Source: Candidatus Hydrogenedentota bacterium (GTDB lineage: Bacteria; Hydrogenedentota; Hydrogenedentia; Hydrogenedentales; JAGMZX01). Taken from it: 21,099 nt of DNA. The position numbers were made by a program, and so were the translations under genes. The DNA lies in the NCBI GenBank assembly GCA_029556545.1, contig JAKQEQ010000006.1, positions 1 to 21,099 on the forward strand, written 5' to 3'. Below the pieces are notes generated by a model. That model was not told where the DNA came from. It did no database searches and saw only the letters and a list, made by a program, of their open reading frames with translations. Shown here piece after piece: positions 1 through 14,816 of this stretch (within the stretch, counting starts at the first letter, position 1; every line of letters begins with the position of its first letter).

Positions 1-475
1 GGCGGCGGCGGCGCGCTCGGCTATCTTTGGTGGGTGCCGTGGCAGTGGTACGGCGGTTGGGGCGGCGCGGGCGGCAACGGCGGCCAAGGGCAGACCGGCG
101 GCTGGGGCGGCGCGGGCGGTAGCGGCGGCTGGGGCGGTTCCGGCGGCGCGGGCGGTTCCGGCGGCGGCGCCATCGTGCTCTCGGCTCGGGGTCTGCTCCG
201 TGTCGAGCCCGGCGCTACGGTGAATATATCATCGTCCGCCCCGGCGGGCGGTTCGAGCGGCGCGAGCGGCACGGGCGGTGCGGGCGGCGGCGCGCCCAGC
301 GGCTGGACCGGCAATGGCCGCACGGACGGGGCTGGCGGCTCTTGCCTGTTGTGGTGCGGCGGCACGGGCGGCGGCGGCGGCTACGGCGGCGGCGGCGGCT
401 ACGGCGGCACGGGCGGCAGCGGCGGCACGGGCGGTTCCGGCGGTGGCGGCGGTCTGGCGACGCCCGGCATGGTGA
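1..475 (+). repeat. Gly-rich low-complexity coding segment (GGC/GGN runs)
   Basis: Dense ggcggc-type codon runs encode stretches such as GGWGGAGG, GGSGGTGG and GGGGGYGG, interrupted near 169-260 by a beta-strand-like segment (AIVLSARGLLRVEPGATVNI). This pattern occurs in large secreted bacterial proteins where Gly-rich loops separate beta-helix-like strands. Such sequence expands and contracts easily and is prone to assembly error, so the exact unit count may be unreliable. Confidence 0.8.
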
Positions 476-3400
476 AACTGCACGGCTCGATCGTCGAGGC
501 GGCGGGCTCCACTGTCGTGTGCAACAATCACACCGCTGACACGAACGTCAACTATCGCGGCCGCTTCACCATGATTTCCAACATGACTTCCGCGAAACAG
601 GCTGCCGGTATGCCGGGATTCAGCGACGATTATCTCCCGGGATCCGCCTACAACGACCCGGTGCTGACCACGCCGAGCCTTTATGACCCCGACCTGTACG
701 CACCGTTGGTTCCGACCTTGGTCGGCGGTCCCACGGCGGGCGGCTTCGCACTTCCCGACTACTGGAACAAGAGCCGCGTGGACGCGGCCATTGCGGCTGT
801 CGGCGCGCCGGCGTTGATCGAGTTGGTCGTGCTCACGGGCGATTTCGAGGGCTTTGATCAAATCTTCCTTGTGAACACCAGCGCCGCGGATACGGCGGCG
901 CTGGTCACGTTGAACATCGAAGGCTATGCGCCGCTGTCTATCGGGTTCATGACGCCGGGCCAGGTGTGGACCACCCTCGCGCCGGTCGGCGCGGCGGTCA
1001 GCGCCTCGTTCGTGCTGGACATCGGCCCGCAGATTTCCGTGACCGGCGGACCGCTGAACTTCGGTATTCACGAGACCGGCGGCGCGCTTACGGCAACGCA
1101 GCGTATCACCATCGAAAACACCGGCACCCGCGACCTCGCCTTCACGAGCGTCGACGTAGTCGGGTCGGACGCCGCGAACTTCCCGGTTCAAGGATACTCG
1201 TGGACGAATCCGATGACGCCTGGACAGACCGGCGTCGTCGACATCGCGTTCGATCCGCAACTGTCGGGCGAGAAACTCGCCGATCTGGCCATTCTCTCGA
1301 ATGCGCTGAATGAACCCGAAGTCCTCGTCGAATTGACCGGCATCGCCGATCTCAAGCCGACGATAGCGGCGGCGGAATCGGTCGTCACGGTCGAGTGCGA
1401 GGGACCAGCGGGCACGGAAGCGACCCTCTCGGTATCGGTCGAGGATGCGGACGGCGACCCGCTCACGGTCACGTGGGAGATCGGGGGCGCGATCGTGCGG
1501 ACGGATGAAGCGGCGCCCGGCGGACCGCCGACCACGGCGGACCTCTCCCTCGCCAGTCTCTTCCCGAACGGTTCAAGCACGGTGCGGGTGACGGTTTTCG
1601 ATCAATACATCGGCCAGCAGAATGAGACACTGGTCACGGTGACGGTCGAGGACACGATCGCGCCGGTCATCACCATGCTCGGTGCGCCGGAGCTTACGAT
1701 CGAGGTATTCACGCCTTATGTGGACGCCGGTGCGACCGCCCTCGACGCGTGTGAGGGCGACCTCACGAATCAGATCGTAACCGTCAACGGTGTTGTGGCC
1801 TCCGTCGTCGGAAGCTACACGGTGACCCATAACGTGGCCGACGGGGCCGGTAACCCCGCCGTTGAAGCAATCCGGTTGGTGCACGTAGTCGATACCACGC
1901 CGCCAGTGATCGGGCTGAACGGCGCCGACCCGTTGTATCACGAGGTCAACACGCCGTTCGTGGATCCTGGCGCGACGGCTGTGGACAATTACGATGGCGA
2001 CATCAGCCATCTCATCGTCGCGTCCAGCAACGTGGACCCCGCCGAGTTGGGCGCGTATGCCATCGTGTATGACGTGGCCGATTCGTCGGGCAACGCGGCG
2101 GCCACGGTGACCCGCGCGGTTATCGTGCGCGACACGACGCCGCCGGACGCCTTCTGCAAAGACGTGACGGCGGAACTGGACGCGACCGGGGCGGCGATGA
2201 TTACCGCCGCTAATATCGACGGTGGCAGTACGGACAACTACGCGATCGCGTCGAAGGCGGTCGCGCCGGACCTCTTCACGTGCGACAACCTCGGGGCAAA
2301 CGAGGTAACGCTCACGGTGACGGATACGAGCGACAATGCGAGTGCTTGCACCGCGACGGTTACGGTCTTGGACCTGCTGCCTCCCATCGTTGAGACGTCT
2401 GATATCACTATCGCGCTGGATGCCTCGGGTCTGGCGTCGATTTCGGCCTCCGATGTGGACGGGGGTAGCAGCGACAATTGCGCCGTGGCGACCCTGAGCG
2501 TTTCTCCGGACGCGTTTACATGCGCGGACCTTGGCGCGAACGCGGCAACCTTGACGGTGACGGATAACAGTGGCAACACGGCCAGCGCGCTGGCCACGGT
2601 CACGGTCGCGGATACGCTCGCCCCGACGGCGTTGGCGCAGGACCTCACGGTGGCGTTGGACGCTTCGGGTCTGGCGTCGATCTCGGCGTCGGACGTGGAC
2701 GCGGGCAGCAGCGATAATTGCGCCGTGGCGACCCTGAGCGTTTCTCCGGATGCGTTCACCTGCGCGGACCTTGGCGCGAACGCGGTAACCTTGACGGTGA
2801 CGGACGACAGCGGGAACACGGCCAGCGCGGCGGCAGCGGTGACGGTGGTGGACACGATTGCGCCGGCAGCGTTGGCGCAAGACTTCACGGTGGCGCTGGA
2901 TGCCTCGGGCGTGGCGACGATTGCAGCGTCCGACGTGGATGCCGGCAGCAGCGACAACTGCGCGGTGGCGTCCATGAGCGTGTCGCCGAGCGTCTTTACG
3001 TGCTCGAGCGTGGGCGCCAACGTCGTGACGCTGACCGTCGTTGACCAGAGCGGTAACACGAGCACGGCGACGGCCGTGGCGACAGTCGTTGACGTGACGT
3101 CGCCGGTGGCGCTGTGCCGCGATCTCACGGTCCGACTCGATGCATCCGGCAACGCCGCAATCACGGCGGCGGACATCGATGCGGGCAGTAACGACGCCTG
3201 CGGCGTTGCGAGCATCGAGGTCGTACCGAGCGCGTTCACCTGCGCGAACGTGGGCGCGAACGTGGTTACCTTGACCGTATTGGACGTGAACGGCAACGTG
3301 GCTTCCTGCGAAGGCACCGTGACCGTCGAGGACGGTATCGCGCCGGTAGTGACCTGCCCGGCGGATGTCACGCTGGTGGCCGACGATACCTGCACGGCGG

Positions 3401-4329
3401 CCGTGCCGGACCTCGCGGCGCTTGCGGCGGCGACCGATAACTGCGGTGTGGCCTCGATCACGCAGGAACCCGCCGCCGGGACCGCCGCGCCCTTGGGCGA
3501 TACGGTCGTGACGATCACGGCCACGGACGTCAACGGCAACCGCGCGCAATGCCCCGTGCTCGTTACGGTCGTCGACACGACGTCCCCGGTGGTGACGGAT
3601 GAAGCGGTCACGCCGAACCCGGTGGCGGTCGGCACGCCGTTTGCCATTACGGCAGCCATCGAGGACCTTTGCTCGAATATCGTGGCGGCGGAATACAGCC
3701 TCGACGGCGGCGTCACATGGCTGCCCATGGACCCGATAGCGTCGCCCGCCCTGTCCGTGACCGCAGGGGTCACGGTGGCGGGGATTGCCGCGCCGGCGAT
3801 CTTGACGGTGTCCGTGCGTGGTTGGGACGCCGCGGGCAACGTGAGCGCGCCGGTGAGTCTCTTCCTGCCGGTCTACGATCCGTCTGGCGGTTTCGTGACG
3901 GGCGGCGGCTGGATCAACTCGCCTCCGGGCGCCTACGCGCCGGACCCGACACTCGTGGGCAAGGCGACCTTCGGTTTCGTCTCGAAGTACAAGAAGGGTG
4001 CGAACACGCCTGAAGGCCAGACCGAGTTCCACTTCAACGCGGGCGGCTTGAAGTTCCACTCGAGTTCCTACGAGTGGCTCGTGGTCGCCGGGGCCAAGGC
4101 CCTGTACAAGGGCGAGGGCCGGATCAACGGACAGGGCAACTACAAGTTCTTCCTGAGCGCCATTGACGGCGACCTCAAGAAGCCGAAAGTTCCCGACACG
4201 TTCCGCATCCGCATCTTTACCGAGGAGAACGGCATCGAGGCGCCGGTCTATGATAACCTCCTCGGCGCGAACATGGATGCCGATCCGACCACGGTGCTCG
4301 GTGGCGGTTCGATTGTGGTGCACAAGTAA
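1..4329 (+). CDS. Giant secreted multidomain repeat protein (5'-truncated)
   Basis: The frame is open to the left edge, so the true start and signal peptide lie outside the window; GTG 34 is only the first in-window start-like codon. Domains in order by nucleotide: Gly-rich low-complexity segment (1-475); choice-of-anchor D-like beta-sandwich (about 1020-1345, containing LNFGIHETGG and FDPQLSGEKLADLAI); Ig-like segment (about 1350-1650); two DUF5011/Cry22-type Ig domains (about 1660-1890 and 1900-2130, each with F/Y-VD-GATA); five 80-residue repeats (2161-3360, each with LDASG/LDATG, then SxDNxAV or similar, and a VTLTVxD strand); a HYR-like domain (about 3340-3580, CPADVTL... TDNCGVASI); and a conserved C-terminal domain from FVTGGGWI (3894) to the stop, resembling the post-COAP-1 domain. 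The architecture fits an extracellular, surface or matrix protein. No enzyme motif is visible. Architecture is confident, function is not known. Confidence 0.85.
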   Translation, partial: GGGGALGYLWWVPWQWYGGWGGAGGNGGQGQTGGWGGAGGSGGWGGSGGAGGSGGGAIVLSARGLLRVEPGATVNISSSAPAGGSSGASGTGGAGGGAPSGWTGNGRTDGAGGSCLLWCGGTGGGGGYGGGGGYGGTGGSGGTGGSGGGGGLATPGMVKLHGSIVEAAGSTVVCNNHTADTNVNYRGRFTMISNMTSAKQAAGMPGFSDDYLPGSAYNDPVLTTPSLYDPDLYAPLVPTLVGGPTAGGFALPDYWNKSRVDAAIAAVGAPALIELVVLTGDFEGFDQIFLVNTSAADTAALVTLNIEGYAPLSIGFMTPGQVWTTLAPVGAAVSASFVLDIGPQISVTGGPLNFGIHETGGALTATQRITIENTGTRDLAFTSVDVVGSDAANFPVQGYSWTNPMTPGQTGVVDIAFDPQLSGEKLADLAILSNALNEPEVLVELTGIADLKPTIAAAESVVTVECEGPAGTEATLSVSVEDADGDPLTVTWEIGGAIVRTDEAAPGGPPTTADLSLASLFPNGSSTVRVTVFDQYIGQQNETLVTVTVEDTIAPVITMLGAPELTIEVFTPYVDAGATALDACEGDLTNQIVTVNGVVASVVGSYTVTHNVADGAGNPAVEAIRLVHVVDTTPPVIGLNGADPLYHEVNTPFVDPGATAVDNYDGDISHLIVASSNVDPAELGAYAIVYDVADSSGNAAATVTRAVIVRDTTPPDAFCKDVTAELDATGAAMITAANIDGGSTDNYAIASKAVAPDLFTCDNLGANEVTLTVTDTSDNASACTATVTVLDLLPPIVETSDITIALDASGLASISASDVDGGSSDNCAVATLSVSPDAFTCADLGANAATLTVTDNSGNTASALATVTVADTLAPTALAQDLTVALDASGLASISASDVDAGSSDNCAVATLSVSPDAFTCADLGANAVTLTVTDDSGNTASAAAAVTVVDTIAPAALAQDFTVALDASGVATIAASDVDAGSSDNCAVASMSVSPSVFTCSSVGANVVTLTVVDQSGNTSTATAVATVVDVTSPVALCRDLTVRLDASGNAAITAADIDAGSNDACGVASIEVVPSAFTCANVGANVVTLTVLDVNGNVASCEGTVTVEDGIAPVVTCPADVTLVADDTCTAAVPDLAALAAATDNCGVASITQEPAAGTAAPLGDTVVTITATDVNGNRAQCPVLVTVVDTTSPVVTDEAVTPNPVAVGTPFAITAAIEDLCSNIVAAEYSLDGGVTWLPMDPIASPALSVTAGVTVAGIAAPAILTVSVRGWDAAGNVSAPVSLFLPVYDPSGGFVTGGGWINSPPGAYAPDPTLVGKATFGFVSKYKKGANTPEGQTEFHFNAGGLKFHSSSYEWLVVAGAKALYKGEGRINGQGNYKFFLSAIDGDLKKPKVPDTFRIRIFTEENGIEAPVYDNLLGANMDADPTTVLGGGSIVVHK
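2161..3360 (+). repeat. Five in-frame tandem repeats of exactly 240 bp
   Basis: Units begin at 2161, 2401, 2641, 2881 and 3121, each 80 codons with no indels. Each starts with the strand before LDASG/LDATG (GAC/GAT at the first codon) and ends just before the next. Units 2 and 3 are the closest at DNA level, sharing long identical stretches (for example around 2480-2510 and 2720-2750). Units 1 and 5 are the most divergent, as expected when arrays grow by central duplication. The following HYR-like domain at about 3361 keeps the same phase. Confidence 0.9.
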
Positions 4330-10251: not shown

Positions 10252-11034
10252 TCACGCTTCCTCGCGCACGATCCGCTCGATCGACACCGCCCGCCCCGAA
10301 GCGTCGTCCGCCTCGACCAGCACGGCGTTCAGCCATACCGGGCCTTTGGCCACGTGGAACTGGCGCGGCAGCCCGGTGATGAACTTCGTGATCACGGCGT
10401 CCCGTTCCGTGCCGATCACGCCGTCCCGCGGTCCCGTCATGCCGATATCGGTAATGTATGCCGTTCCGCCGGGGAGTATGCGCTCATCCGCCGTCGGCAC
10501 GTGCGTGTGCGTCCCGAGCACGGCGGTGCATTGTCCATCCAGATGCCATCCGAAGGCAACCTTCTCGGACGTGGCCTCGGCGTGAAAGTCGACAATCGTA
10601 ACATGCGCTTGCGCGCGCAGCGCTTCGAGTTCGCGCGCCGCGCACGCGAAGGGACACTCGAACGGCGTCATAAACACGCGCCCCATTACGTTGAGCAGCG
10701 CCAGACGGCGCCTATCCGGCAAGGTCAACACCGCCGCACCGCGCCCGGGAACCCCGGCGGGGAAATTGGCGGGCCGCACCACGTCCGTCATGCCGTCGAT
10801 GGCGGACATCAAGGGCGCTTTGCGCCAGGCATGATTTCCCATCGTGAAACCGGCCACGCCGGCTTCGCGCAGGGTATCGAGCACCTCGGGCGTGGCGCCG
10901 AGCCCGCCGGCCGCGTTTTCCGCATTGGCCAGCACGATATCGACGCCGAATTCGTCGCGCAAGTCGGGCAGCCACTGCGCCACGGCGCGCCGGCCCGGGC
11001 GCCCCACGATATCGCCGAGAAACAGAATTCTCAT
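10252..11034 (-). CDS. ymdB: YmdB-like metallophosphoesterase (2',3'-cyclic-nucleotide phosphodiesterase family)
   Basis: ATG 11034 gives 260 residues starting MRILFLGDIVGRPGR, exactly where the family begins. The frame stays open upstream to 11127, but that extension is translated 9-bp repeat DNA and should be excluded. Metal and catalytic motifs of the TIGR00282-type family are present: D8 in GDIVGRPGR, NAENAAGG (37-44), GNHAW (66-70, H68), VDFHAEATSEK (148-158, H151) and GTHTHVPTADE (174-184, H176/H178). TDIGMTGPRDGVIG (195-208) is also typical. B. subtilis YmdB hydrolyses 2',3'-cAMP and affects RNA turnover and developmental choice, and its gene lies next to rny, as here. The substrate in this organism is inferred. 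Confidence 0.93.
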   Translation of the reverse strand: MRILFLGDIVGRPGRRAVAQWLPDLRDEFGVDIVLANAENAAGGLGATPEVLDTLREAGVAGFTMGNHAWRKAPLMSAIDGMTDVVRPANFPAGVPGRGAAVLTLPDRRRLALLNVMGRVFMTPFECPFACAARELEALRAQAHVTIVDFHAEATSEKVAFGWHLDGQCTAVLGTHTHVPTADERILPGGTAYITDIGMTGPRDGVIGTERDAVITKFITGLPRQFHVAKGPVWLNAVLVEADDASGRAVSIERIVREEA

Positions 11035-11067
11035 CGGTTCCAATGCGCTCCGCGCGTGAAGGCCAAT

Positions 11068-11240
11068 GGACCTAAAGGACGTAAAGGACGCAAGGGACAC
11101 AAACGACCGAAAGGCCCCGAAGGACACGAGACCACCGCGGTATTTGGGCTGGTCGCATAATGCGCGGTCTTGCCCCGTTTCTCCTTCACGTCCTCCTCGC
11201 GCCTTCTCGAACTCTTGGTCCCTGCGGTCCCTTCGGTTTC
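11068..11240. repeat. Inverted pair of 9-bp repeat arrays (GGACNNAAA)
   Basis: On the + strand seven contiguous 9-mers run from 11068 to 11130 (GGACCTAAA, GGACGTAAA, GGACGCAAG, GGACACAAA, CGACCGAAA, GGCCCCGAA, GGACACGAG). On the - strand a more decayed array of the same unit occupies about 11176-11240 (for example GGACCGCAG, GGACCAAGA, GGACGTGAA). The purine-rich and pyrimidine-rich arms can pair as a long imperfect hairpin in the rny-ymdB transcript. The gap between rny and ymdB (11035-11257) is made almost wholly of this element. It is not a gene, although it is open in several frames. Confidence 0.75.
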
Positions 11241-11257: not shown

Positions 11258-12826
11258 CTACTTGGCCACCTCGACGGCCCGGGTCTCTCGCACCACCGTA
11301 ATTTTGATCTCGCCCGGATACGTCATTTCCGCTTCAACCTTCCGCGCGATGTCCCGCGCCAGCAAGACCGCGTCCGCATCGGTGATCTTGTTCGGCTCGA
11401 CAACGATGCGGACCTCGCGGCCCGCCTGCAAGGCGTAGGACTTCTCGACGCCCGTGAAGGTATCGGCAATCTGTTCGAGCTGCTCGAGACGCTTGACGTA
11501 GTGCTGCATGGACTCGCTGCGCGCGCCGGGCCGCGCGGCGGACAACGCGTCCGCCGCCTGGACCAGCACGGCGGTCAGGCCTTCCATAGGCATTTCGCCG
11601 TGGTGCGCGCCGATGGCGTTGGCAATCGCCTCCGTCTCCCCATAGCGCCGGGCCAGGTCGTGCCCGAGCACGGCGTGCGACCCTTCGACCTCGTGGGTCA
11701 GGGCTTTGCCGATGTCGTGGATGAGGCCGGCGCGCTTGACTTCGGCGATATTGATGCCGAGTTCGGCGCCCATCACCGCGCAGAGGTGGCAGACCTCGAG
11801 CGAGTGGCGCAGCACGTTCTGGCCGTAGGAAGTGCGGAAGCTCAGGCGCCCGAGCAGCTTGACGATCTCGGGGTGAAGCCCGTGCACGTCCGCCTCGAGG
11901 CAGGCCTGCTCGCCCCGTTCTTTGATCGTCTGGGCGATTTCCTCGTTGACCTTGACCACCATTTCCTCGATGCGCGCCGGGTGGATGCGTCCGTCTGAAA
12001 CGAGGCGCTCGAGGGTAACGCGGGCCACTTCGCGCCGAATCGGGTCGAAGCCGGAAAGTATGACGGCCTCGGGGGTGTCGTCGATGATCACGTTGATCCC
12101 CGTCGCGTTCTCGAGCGCGCGGATGTTCCGGCCCTCACGCCCGATGATCCGGCCCTTCATTTCGTCGTTGGGCAGCGCCACCACCGAAACCGTGGACTCG
12201 GCCACGTGGTCCGCCGCGCACCGCTGGATGGCCTCGCCGATGATCCAACGCGCCTTCTTCTCCGCGGTTTCCCGAGCCTCCTCCTCGATCTTCTTCAGTT
12301 GCAGGGCGCAATCGCGCTTCACTTCGTTTTCGAGGTTGTGGAAGAGTTCGCGCCGCGCCTGGTCCGCCGTCATGCCCGAGATGGCCTCGAGCCGTTCCGT
12401 CTGCCGCGCGATGATCGCCGCGACCTTCTCTCTTTCCTTCTCAACGACTTTCTCGCGTCGGACGAGGTCGCGCTCTTGCGCGTTCAACTCGTTGGCCTTC
12501 TTGTCCAGCGTCTCGGTCCGCTTATCGAGGGCTTCCTCCTTCGTTTGCAGCCGTTTTTCGAAACTGGCCAGTTCCCGGCGCTGCTCGCGGCCATCTTTCT
12601 CGACCCGCGCCCGCAGGTCGATCTCCAATTCCTTGAGACTGGTCTTTGCGTCCTTGAGGATTGAAGCGGCGTCCTTCTCCGCATTGCTCATGATCTGGCC
12701 GGCGTCGCGTTTGGCTTTCCCAAGCACGCTGTTGCCGCGCCATCGCGCCATCAGTACGGTGGCCACAATGCCGAGGATAAGACCCGCCGCCGCAATCCCG
12801 ACAAGGACAAGAATCATGCTGTTCAT
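11258..12826 (-). CDS. rny: Ribonuclease Y
   Basis: The 522-residue protein has the complete RNase Y layout: an N-terminal membrane anchor (residues 3-26, [20 protein letters not shown]), a long charged coiled coil (about 35-200), a KH RNA-binding domain with [10 protein letters not shown] (225-234), and an HD phosphohydrolase domain with HSLEVCHL (341-348), the HD pair H370-D371 in [14 protein letters not shown] (406-411) and D426. Length is the family norm. It is a membrane-tethered endonuclease that starts mRNA decay. ATG 12826 is preceded by AAAGGA at 7-nt spacing. A perfect consensus promoter about 290 nt upstream and a structured leader suggest post-transcriptional control, possibly autoregulation; this last point is inference. 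Confidence 0.97.
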
Positions 12827-13113
12827 GCTGTCGTCCTTTCAGTCCTGTTCGGGAACACGTCAAGGCGGTTTCGCCCGGCGGGAAGCGGAACGCGGGAAAG
12901 GGCCTCGGGAGGATTAGCACATTCCAAGAGCGCGGGCCGCAACCGGTTGCGCGCTCGAAAGGTTCTCTAACTCCACCACAACATCGTCTGCATCAGATCG
13001 CCAAGAAAAGGCGGTGAAGAATCTATCAGGACGCCTCCGCGAGGCGCGTACCATGCTTCCTTCACAAGGCCTTGCCATTTCCCAACCTACCGCCGGGTAA
13101 ATCTGCCAATAGT
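12827..13113 (-). ncRNA. Long structured 5' leader of rny or an independent small RNA
   Basis: About 287 nt separate the predicted transcription start (near 13113) from the rny ATG. Four nested helices can form in order: CAGAT (13105-13101) with ATCTG (12998-12994); GGCGG (13094-13090) with CCGCC (13014-13010); GTGAAG (13065-13060) with CTTCAC (13019-13014, sharing one base with the previous helix); and a terminal hairpin CGCCTC/GAGGCG (13046-13032). A separate strong hairpin follows at 12956-12928 (7-bp stem GAGCGCG/CGCGCTC enclosing a GCAACCGGTTGC palindrome). No U-tract terminator is visible before rny. The rod-like fold would suit a 6S-type or other small RNA, or an RNase Y-sensitive leader, but I recognise no known family. 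Confidence 0.4.
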
Positions 13114-13120
13114 GGGAGTT

Positions 13121-13149
13121 ATTATAGGGGTGTCCAGCGATGATGTCAA
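13121..13149 (-). promoter_or_regulatory. Perfect sigma70 consensus promoter upstream of rny
   Basis: On the - strand TTGACA (13149-13144), a 17-nt spacer (13143-13127) and TATAAT (13126-13121) match the housekeeping consensus at all twelve positions. A second TTGACA lies 22 nt further upstream (13171-13166). The expected start is near 13113, about 290 nt before the rny ATG. A full-consensus promoter is rare for an ordinary protein gene in GC-rich DNA and suggests strong constitutive transcription, as for an abundant RNA. Confidence 0.8.
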
Positions 13150-13469
13150 TCAAGGCAGTAGTCGCTGTCAAAACTCGTTAGAAATGTCAGGGTGTGTCCG
13201 ATGGCGCACTTCGCTCTAGCGTGACTCTCCGCGGAATTCGGAACGGGGCGGGGGATGTGATAGATAGCGCGGGCGGCGGGGAAGCGGGCTACTCCCCGGA
13301 GGCGTCCAGCGAGTCTTGCCGGGGAGCAAACCGGAGCGCAGCGGCAGGGGGAGTGCTATCGTGATTCCGCATTTGACTGGGCGCGGGGTTCGGGGGTAGG
13401 CTGGATGGGTCGGGGGATGAACCCTCCGAACGAGGCGCCCGAAGTGCGCGAACAGGGGAGGCTTAGGCC
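13150..13469. other. Intergenic region between divergent rny and aminotransferase genes
   Basis: No credible coding region is seen here. It holds a long hairpin CTCCCCGG (13292-13299) with CCGGGGAG (13319-13326), 8-bp stem and 19-nt loop, plus the possible aminotransferase promoter. The stretch 13185-13260 shows nothing recognisable. A TTG-initiated 85-codon frame on the - strand (13171-12914) starts upstream of the rny promoter and resembles nothing, so it is not called. Confidence 0.5.
13373..13402 (+). promoter_or_regulatory. Possible promoter of the aminotransferase gene
   Basis: TTGACT (13373-13378) and TAGGCT (13397-13402) are separated by 18 nt, giving a predicted start near 13409 and a 60-nt leader. 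The -10 box is a weak match, so this is tentative. Confidence 0.35.
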
Positions 13470-14816
13470 ATGCAGTCGAGCAAGAATAGCCTGAAAGAGA
13501 CGCGGCGAGGATTTCTGAAGACGGCGAGCGCGGCGGGCGCCGCGCTGTACCTGGGCGGCGTGGAAAGCGGGAAGGCGGCGGCCGCGCCGGCGAAGGTCGA
13601 GACGCTGGCGTTGAACGGCGGCCCGAAGGCGGTGACCGCGGCGGCGGCGGGCGCGACGAAATGGCCGCTTTACGGGGAGGATGAGATTGCGGCGGTCGCG
13701 GAACTGTTGCGCAGTCCGGGGTACGGTCCGGTGGCCGAGTTCGAGGAGGCGTGGAAGTCGTATCACGGGTGCGCTTATGTTAAGGCGCACTGTAACGGCA
13801 CGAACGCGCTGACGTCGATGCTGTTCGCGCTCGACTTGCCGCCCGGCAGCGAGGTGCTCGTGGCGGATTACAGCACGTGGTTTCCGGTGGTGCCGATGCG
13901 GTTCTTTGACTTGGTCCCGGTCTTTGTCGACGTGAATCCGCGCACGATGAACATCGACGTCGAGGACTGCAAGCGGCGGCTGACGGCGAAGACGCGGGCG
14001 ATCATGCCGGTGCACTGGTACGGCGTGCCGTGCGATATGGACGATATCTGTGAGTTCGCGAAGGAGCACGGCCTCGAGGTGGTCGAGGACGCGAGCCACG
14101 CCCACGGCGCGCGGGTGAAGGATACACTCATCGGGAATTGGGGGCGCATGGCCGGTTTCAGCCTCCAGACCGGCAAGCCACTGCCCGCCATCGAGGGCGG
14201 TGTGGCCATGTACAAGCAGCAGGGGGACTTCGAGCGCGCCGTCACGTACGGCAATTACGACTTGCCGCGCACGTTCCCCGAGGACAGCCCGTACCGCAAG
14301 TACCAGGGCACGGCCTTTGGGTCGAAACTGCGCATTCACCCCGTGGCCGCCATCCTGGCGCGCATCCAGCTCGGGAAGCTTGACGAGTACAATCGCGTCG
14401 GCATGAGCCAGCTTCGCCGGCTGAACGACCGCATAACGCAGTTGCCCGGCCTGAGCGAGCAGTACGCGCGGCCCGACATGCAGCGGGTGTGCTATTCGAG
14501 CAACCTGATGTTCATCGACGAGCAGGCGGCGGGCATGTCGCGCGCGGCGGCGGTGAAGGCGCTTCAGGCGGAGGGCGTCGACGTGGGCGAATACTCCTGG
14601 ACCCTGCTGCACACGTACCCGATATTCAGCGAGTCGCAGTGGTGGCGGCATATGCCCGTTCTGCCCGTGCCCGATTCCGTGCCCGGCTGCGACGAGGCGA
14701 ACCGCAAGGCGATTCGGCTACCGTACTTCACGTCCGAGCAGCCCGAGTTGGTCGATCAGTACATTGCGGCCTTCGAGAAGGTCTGGGCGCACCGGGACGC
14801 GATCGGCAGGACGTGA
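13470..14816 (+). CDS. Tat-signal DegT/AHBA-synthase-like PLP aminotransferase
   Basis: ATG 13470 follows GGGGAG (13455-13460). Residues 1-40 form a twin-arginine signal: TRRGFLKTA, then an Ala/Gly-rich hydrophobic stretch (SAAGAALYLGG) ending in Ala-rich sequence. The remaining 400 or so residues are a DegT/DnrJ/EryC1/StrS aminotransferase with D207 in VEDASHAHGA (the PLP pyridine-nitrogen Asp) and K236 in SLQTGKPLPAIEGG (Schiff-base Lys). So the enzyme looks active, and the motif is closer to AHBA synthase-like members than to sugar aminotransferases. Family members normally transaminate nucleotide-linked keto-sugars in the cytoplasm; a Tat signal implies a PLP-loaded folded enzyme exported to the periplasm, where the substrate is unknown. 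It has no sugar-biosynthesis neighbours. Family is confident, substrate is not. Confidence 0.9.
   Translation: MQSSKNSLKETRRGFLKTASAAGAALYLGGVESGKAAAAPAKVETLALNGGPKAVTAAAAGATKWPLYGEDEIAAVAELLRSPGYGPVAEFEEAWKSYHGCAYVKAHCNGTNALTSMLFALDLPPGSEVLVADYSTWFPVVPMRFFDLVPVFVDVNPRTMNIDVEDCKRRLTAKTRAIMPVHWYGVPCDMDDICEFAKEHGLEVVEDASHAHGARVKDTLIGNWGRMAGFSLQTGKPLPAIEGGVAMYKQQGDFERAVTYGNYDLPRTFPEDSPYRKYQGTAFGSKLRIHPVAAILARIQLGKLDEYNRVGMSQLRRLNDRITQLPGLSEQYARPDMQRVCYSSNLMFIDEQAAGMSRAAAVKALQAEGVDVGEYSWTLLHTYPIFSESQWWRHMPVLPVPDSVPGCDEANRKAIRLPYFTSEQPELVDQYIAAFEKVWAHRDAIGRT

Follow-up and report, generated by a model that had tools for sequence, protein, structure and literature searches.

The window, that is, the whole stretch of DNA that was analysed (21,099 nt from a Candidatus Hydrogenedentota bacterium, order Hydrogenedentales), carries on its minus strand the gene of RNase Y (rny), with a ymdB homologue and then smc downstream on that strand, and a DegT-type aminotransferase gene (13470-14816, plus strand) lies divergent to the rny leader. 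The N-terminus of this DegT/DnrJ/EryC1-type protein (MQSSKNSLKETRRGFLKTASAAGAALYLGG) resembles a Tat export signal, which is unexpected for that family. A long open frame at 1-4329 (plus strand) has a glycine-rich start (GGWGGAGGNGGQ...) and continues with many repeats of about 80 residues that resemble one another; its product looks like a secreted surface protein. Upstream of rny, the minus strand carries the promoter TTGACA-17-TATAAT (13149..13121), and the sequence-only reading of this stretch was exact in this respect, as motifs, 17-nt spacer and strand all agree and 12 of 12 consensus positions match. The leader of about 287 nt that it had placed before rny agrees with a predicted start near 13114 and the rny ATG at 12826. 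The features of the locus are listed below in the order in which they would be transcribed; the arm-swap test is described further on.

13144..13149, minus strand: -35 element TTGACA, part of the 12/12 promoter match; 56 genomes of the order have a 10-12/12 promoter at the equivalent position
13121..13126, minus strand: -10 element TATAAT, part of the 12/12 match and conserved in the order
13098..13114, minus strand: predicted transcription start (about 13114), placed by its distance from the -10 element, and a 5' tail that is mostly unpaired in the fold
13053..13097, minus strand: 5' arm of the rod, from the leader fold and the arm-swap test (z = -9.2, 34 genera); outer helix 13097-13090, CCCGGCGG
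13016..13083, minus strand: conserved 67-nt core GGCAAGG...CGCC-loop-GGCG...GAUAGAUU, from the alignment of relatives and a match to the core model R1
13031..13047, minus strand: hairpin H1 of the core, from the fold and paired changes among relatives (arm-swap z = -1.3)
13020..13030, minus strand: segment 3' of H1, U/A-rich in relatives (consensus GUUU..AUAU), candidate RNase Y site
12971..13019, minus strand: apical hairpin CUUCACCGC / GUGGUGGAG, from the fold; retained in the two-species consensus of the genus
12928..12956, minus strand: strong GC-rich apical hairpin, from the fold; noted already in the sequence-only reading
12874..12920, minus strand: 3' arm of the rod, from the leader fold and the arm-swap test; outer helix 12881-12874, CCGCCGGG
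12842..12856, minus strand: possible hairpin GUUC...GGAC close to the ribosome-binding site, weak here (p = 0.24) and common in relatives
12834..12839, minus strand: Shine-Dalgarno-like AAAGGA, from sequence and fold
11258..12826, minus strand: rny (RNase Y), Pfam RNase_Y_N, KH_1 and HD
10252..11127, minus strand: ymdB homologue, the gene that follows rny, Pfam YmdB

Perfect TTGACA-N17-TATAAT sites number nine in the 6.1-Mb genome, against none for the same pattern read backwards as a control, and the loci of the other eight (roughly 3 kb each) contained no Rfam family or tRNA. Analysis of the single sequence revealed a leader of ordinary stability: the full 288 nt fold at -103.3 kcal/mol, compared with -103.6 ± 5.2 for shuffles (z = 0.06), and the first 155 nt (13114-12960) gave z = -0.25. 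The foldability claimed earlier was borne out for the separate strong hairpin, which was found at 12956-12928, but not for the folding energy. Taken alone, an energy equal to that of shuffles would suit the view that a chance promoter and chance folds lie in an unconstrained spacer holding no special RNA, a view that we regard as hardly credible, as it is contradicted by the covariation between leader arms, by consensus folds within genera and by nine genomes outside the main test.

Orthologues of rny were detected in 92 of 100 genomes, a sample comprising nearly all available members of the order together with distant outgroups, and the leaders of the order members were extracted. A promoter matching 10-12 of 12 consensus positions was present upstream of the rny ATG in 56 genomes from nine families (f1-f5, f7 and f9-f11), mostly at a distance of 246-321 nt; in family f3 the distance was 395-483 nt. 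No such promoter preceded rny among the f6 genomes listed, and in family f8 rny was not found in the assembly searched. Among the f3 leaders L081, L082, L084, L085, L086 and L089 (about 395-483 nt), several form an additional hairpin domain 5' of the rod.

Examination of the corresponding places in the leaders of relatives revealed that a long-range rod is kept, in which a 5' arm (13097-13053) pairs with a 3' arm (12920-12874). The four nested helices that had been proposed within 13105-12994 are not the conserved structure, and this local rod was rejected, as it was no better than shuffles and relatives keep the other pairing. To search for the rod, pairing was computed between the 5' part of each leader and the stretch from -120 to -31 before the ATG of the same genome, and the distance from the end of the 3' arm to the rny ATG was found to be about 30-63 nt across relatives. 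The outer helix is formed by different letters in different genomes, namely CCCGGCGG/CCGCCGGG here, UGACG/CGUCA in G038, CUGGCCA/UGGCCAG in G058 and GCUCUU/AAGAGC in G048.

Covariation was assessed by an arm-swap test using one genome per genus (34 genera, 2000 permutations). Arms from the same genome paired at a mean of -43.0 kcal/mol, whereas exchanged arms reached -35.6 ± 0.8, corresponding to a swap cost of 7.4 (z = -9.2, 0/2000); own-arm pairing was better than predicted from row and column means in 31 of the 34 genera, and the outer rod alone gave z = -10.0. In control pairings, the 5' arm gave z = 0.5 with rny codons 1-30, -1.7 with a segment upstream of the promoter and 1.7 with the middle of the leader, and the upstream segment gave -2.5 with the 3' arm and 0.2 with coding sequence. 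As the permutations treat genera as independent and ignore their kinship, the z values are not exact probabilities, and the conservation of the rod is thus argued from the contrast between the arm-swap z and its controls. Nine genomes of families f3 and f6, outside the main test and with 5' arms located through a core-like motif that was picked by eye, gave z = -3.9 (0/5000). Furthermore, RNAalifold consensus folds beat column-shuffled alignments in all 11 genera with at least two species (z from -2.1 to -7.4), and compensated pairs occurred in 10 of these 11 folds, including the two-species fold of the host genus. Covarying secondary structure, as expected of a structured mRNA leader, was thus found in 34 genera, in nine further genomes and in 11/11 genera. 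Neither MAFFT nor a home-made structure-aware aligner produced a usable full-length consensus for the whole order, and hence no full covariance model was made. The sequence-only reading had named a kept promoter above leaders lacking covariation as the pattern that would speak against it; relatives were checked for this pattern and the opposite was found. These findings led to the conclusion that a conserved structured RNA of roughly 150-260 nt almost certainly lies in the 5' leader of the rny mRNA across the order.

The core is located at the head of the 5' arm, within a branched head of the rod, and is nearly constant in length (63-72 nt in 35 genomes), with the consensus GGCAAGGAYUYGG..CGCC-loop-GGCGGUUU..AUAU and a mean column identity of 47%. 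Its hairpin H1 shows paired changes among relatives (CGCC/GGCG, CGCU/AGCG, CCGC/GCGG), and its weak arm-swap value (z = -1.3) is attributed to partial conservation in sequence. Positions in the U/A-rich segment 3' of H1 are unpaired to a moderately higher degree (0.33-0.58 each) than the leader average (0.38). At the other end of the leader, the hairpin immediately 5' of the Shine-Dalgarno motif gave an arm-swap z of -3.4, with p < 0.05 in 7 of 34 genera and a median p of 0.16.

A sequence-only core model trained on sequences of the order (R1) was searched over 60 genomes. As its matches within the order come mostly from the training alignment, they inform on uniqueness and place more than on independent discovery, and leaders of greater divergence escape the model; the match here (13082-13020, E = 1.1e-4) itself belongs to the training set. 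At E < 0.01, 20 matches were obtained, 19 of them upstream of a detected rny; the 20th, in a genome that is not part of the model (G052), ends 99 nt from a contig end, and in the same genome rny begins 181 nt into a different contig. No more than one match at E < 0.02 was obtained in any genome searched. Outside the order, about 174 genomes yielded five matches at E ≤ 0.02, close to the roughly 3.5 expected by chance, and three of these regions were examined and contained no rny. Within the order, confident core matches are thus associated with one gene, lying only upstream of rny, and the 3' arm ends at a near-constant place before its ATG.

Since the element occurs only upstream of rny, once per genome, within a narrow range of distances from the ATG and mostly without a strong terminator, it very likely acts in cis on rny. 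The same observations bear on the proposal that the strong promoter produces a free-standing small RNA acting in trans, with rny transcribed by read-through or released by processing. Full-consensus promoters are indeed rare in the genome (nine sites), and a few genera do have leaders with strong terminator-like hairpins, yet most leaders lack a strong terminator, the rod end is held within the same narrow range before the ATG, 6S RNA is encoded elsewhere, and termination in the genera with internal terminators would delete the 3' arm of the rod. We therefore consider a stand-alone small RNA improbable. Of the two functions suggested for the segment at the outset, control through the RNase Y leader survives by its position in cis, with autoregulation still inferred, and the small RNA is left without support.

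Comparison with Rfam 15 (4227 models) gave nothing credible for the window or for 20 related leader loci, and at this leader nothing credible even at E ≤ 10. A 6S-like identity, for which an Rfam search had been advised, was not borne out, with no RF00013 match here at the gathering threshold or at E ≤ 10. 6S RNA (RF00013) is likewise rod-like and about 200 nt long; in contrast, the rny rod has a 5' tail in front of it, and the ribosome-binding site and rny come directly after it. The order encodes its 6S RNA at another locus, with a match of 58 bits elsewhere in the host genome, and the single RNase P RNA (RF00010) match of the genome is found at G000:C63 (310.6 bits), with none at the rny leader. 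Thus, 6S RNA, RNase P RNA and other known RNAs were rejected for the leader.

A leader peptide was also rejected on inspection, as substitutions alter amino acids and a frameshift occurs within one genus. Inspection by eye revealed three amino-acid-changing codons against one silent codon between the leader frames of G010 and G059, and a frameshift in G047 relative to G049 and G055. The short frames MTxAPxGAVWIW (G010, G059, G016) and MxxxRxxGG (several f4 genomes) follow from the conserved letters of the RNA. Short ATG or GTG frames through the core of relatives, and an 85-aa TTG-start frame here (12914-13171, minus strand) that spans promoter and leader, were both judged not to be coding from their substitutions. 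Terminator-like sites of any strength were present in 16 of 59 leaders, mostly weak, compared with 1 of 59 for coding sequence as a control; strong internal terminators occur in a few genera only, and transcription attenuation was rejected as a general mechanism. In G027/G035 (L062, L056) and G013/G019 (L059, L060), terminator-like hairpins with long U runs lie upstream of the 3' arm of the rod, and genus-specific attenuation or a short terminated RNA is possible there.

The foremost alternative to feedback by RNase Y is that the leader senses another effector, such as a metabolite, an RNA-binding protein or temperature, and gates the rny ribosome-binding site, for example by a 3' arm that switches between rod and Shine-Dalgarno sequence. 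A long structured leader whose head is branched is typical of riboswitches, and the rny leader has this general form. The 3' arm is often complementary to the Shine-Dalgarno region (in G038, CCUCCCUGCC with GGUAGGGAGG), and own pairs were slightly better than swapped ones (z = -2.7, 7/2000). Only 20 of 34 genera exceeded expectation, however, and a control without expected pairing reached z = -2.5, values that do not establish such a switch and leave sequestration by the 3' arm weakly suggested by single cases. Moreover, no known riboswitch matches the leader, and the letters of the core are not strongly conserved (the 47% given above), unlike those of the usual metabolite pockets. Control by another effector is thus unlikely.

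Second among the alternatives is a leader that regulates nothing, constitutively stabilises the message at its 5' end and aids translation, with the rod protecting the message and the strong promoter and Shine-Dalgarno sequence raising output. Structured 5' ends are generally known to protect messages, strong Shine-Dalgarno motifs are present in the rny leaders of the order alongside the strong promoter, and a hairpin beside the motif is common. Nevertheless, a short hairpin would be enough for protection, whereas a rod of many helices with an order-wide core suggests recognition, and we regard a purely constitutive role as rather unlikely. The stand-alone small RNA takes the last place among these three alternatives.

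The leader very probably represents an RNA control element not described before, and is best regarded as a new RNA of an established type, a structured leader of a ribonuclease gene, absent from Rfam 15. An example of this type is rne5 of E. coli (Rfam RF00040), an element of the RNase E 5' UTR. Both are structured leaders of the gene for a main decay-initiating endonuclease, with a use in feedback that is proposed for rny, but the enzyme belongs to another family and the rny leader has no credible Rfam match even at the permissive threshold used above. RNase E is controlled through its own 5' UTR, where it binds a stem-loop (PMC3997798). In the Synechocystis rne 5' UTR, self-cleavage by RNase E takes place in a stretch of six uridines, and premature termination occurs as well; this is again the leader of an RNase gene, but the enzyme differs, and the abstract describes no rod related to that of rny (PMC10989929).

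The precedent for such feedback is rny of B. subtilis, which shares the gene, a long 5' UTR (164 nt), a sigma-A promoter and a strong Shine-Dalgarno sequence; there, the rny message is shorter-lived when RNase Y is active, as the enzyme cleaves it within the 5' UTR and the initial 100 nt of the ORF (PMC10303841). Cleavage in that leader is strongest in an AU-rich region containing one stem-loop, and a large rod has not been described (PMC10303841), whereas the leader of the order, which RNase Y may likewise cleave, is longer, branched and covarying. In B. subtilis, however, most of the control resides in the ORF, and deletion of most of the 5' UTR lowered it only partly (PMC10303841), which counts against a leader-based feedback here. 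This paper alone was returned for a conserved structured rny leader by a literature search mostly confined to journals readable without subscription.

Taken together, a feedback element in the rny leader is the best explanation overall, with a probability of roughly one half. The gene downstream of the leader encodes a decay-initiating RNase (RNase_Y_N, KH_1 and HD domains), and there is an about even chance that RNase Y itself is the effector. The strong promoter would yield a surplus of rny message, whose leader would be shielded by the rod while the U/A-rich segment beside H1 would be kept accessible; RNase Y in surplus would bind or cut near H1 and so open the message to decay, and the level of the enzyme would thereby track the amount of other RNA awaiting degradation. 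Known RNase Y sites are single-stranded, AU-rich and next to secondary structure (PMC3997798), and the segment 3' of H1, a candidate site, fits this description, although cleavage at that very place is doubtful. Tentatively, the leader may sense RNase Y activity, or the load of RNA decay, throughout the order by means of a core recognised by the enzyme and embedded in a protective rod.

How long mRNAs last is set by RNase Y in many bacteria, and the literature located here explains the control of RNase Y itself only for B. subtilis. A covarying leader that has probably co-evolved with RNase Y could reveal the features that the enzyme recognises, so far poorly defined. If the sensing role proposed here is true, the order would possess a dedicated RNA sensor for its main decay-initiating nuclease, one without a described counterpart in other bacteria with RNase Y.
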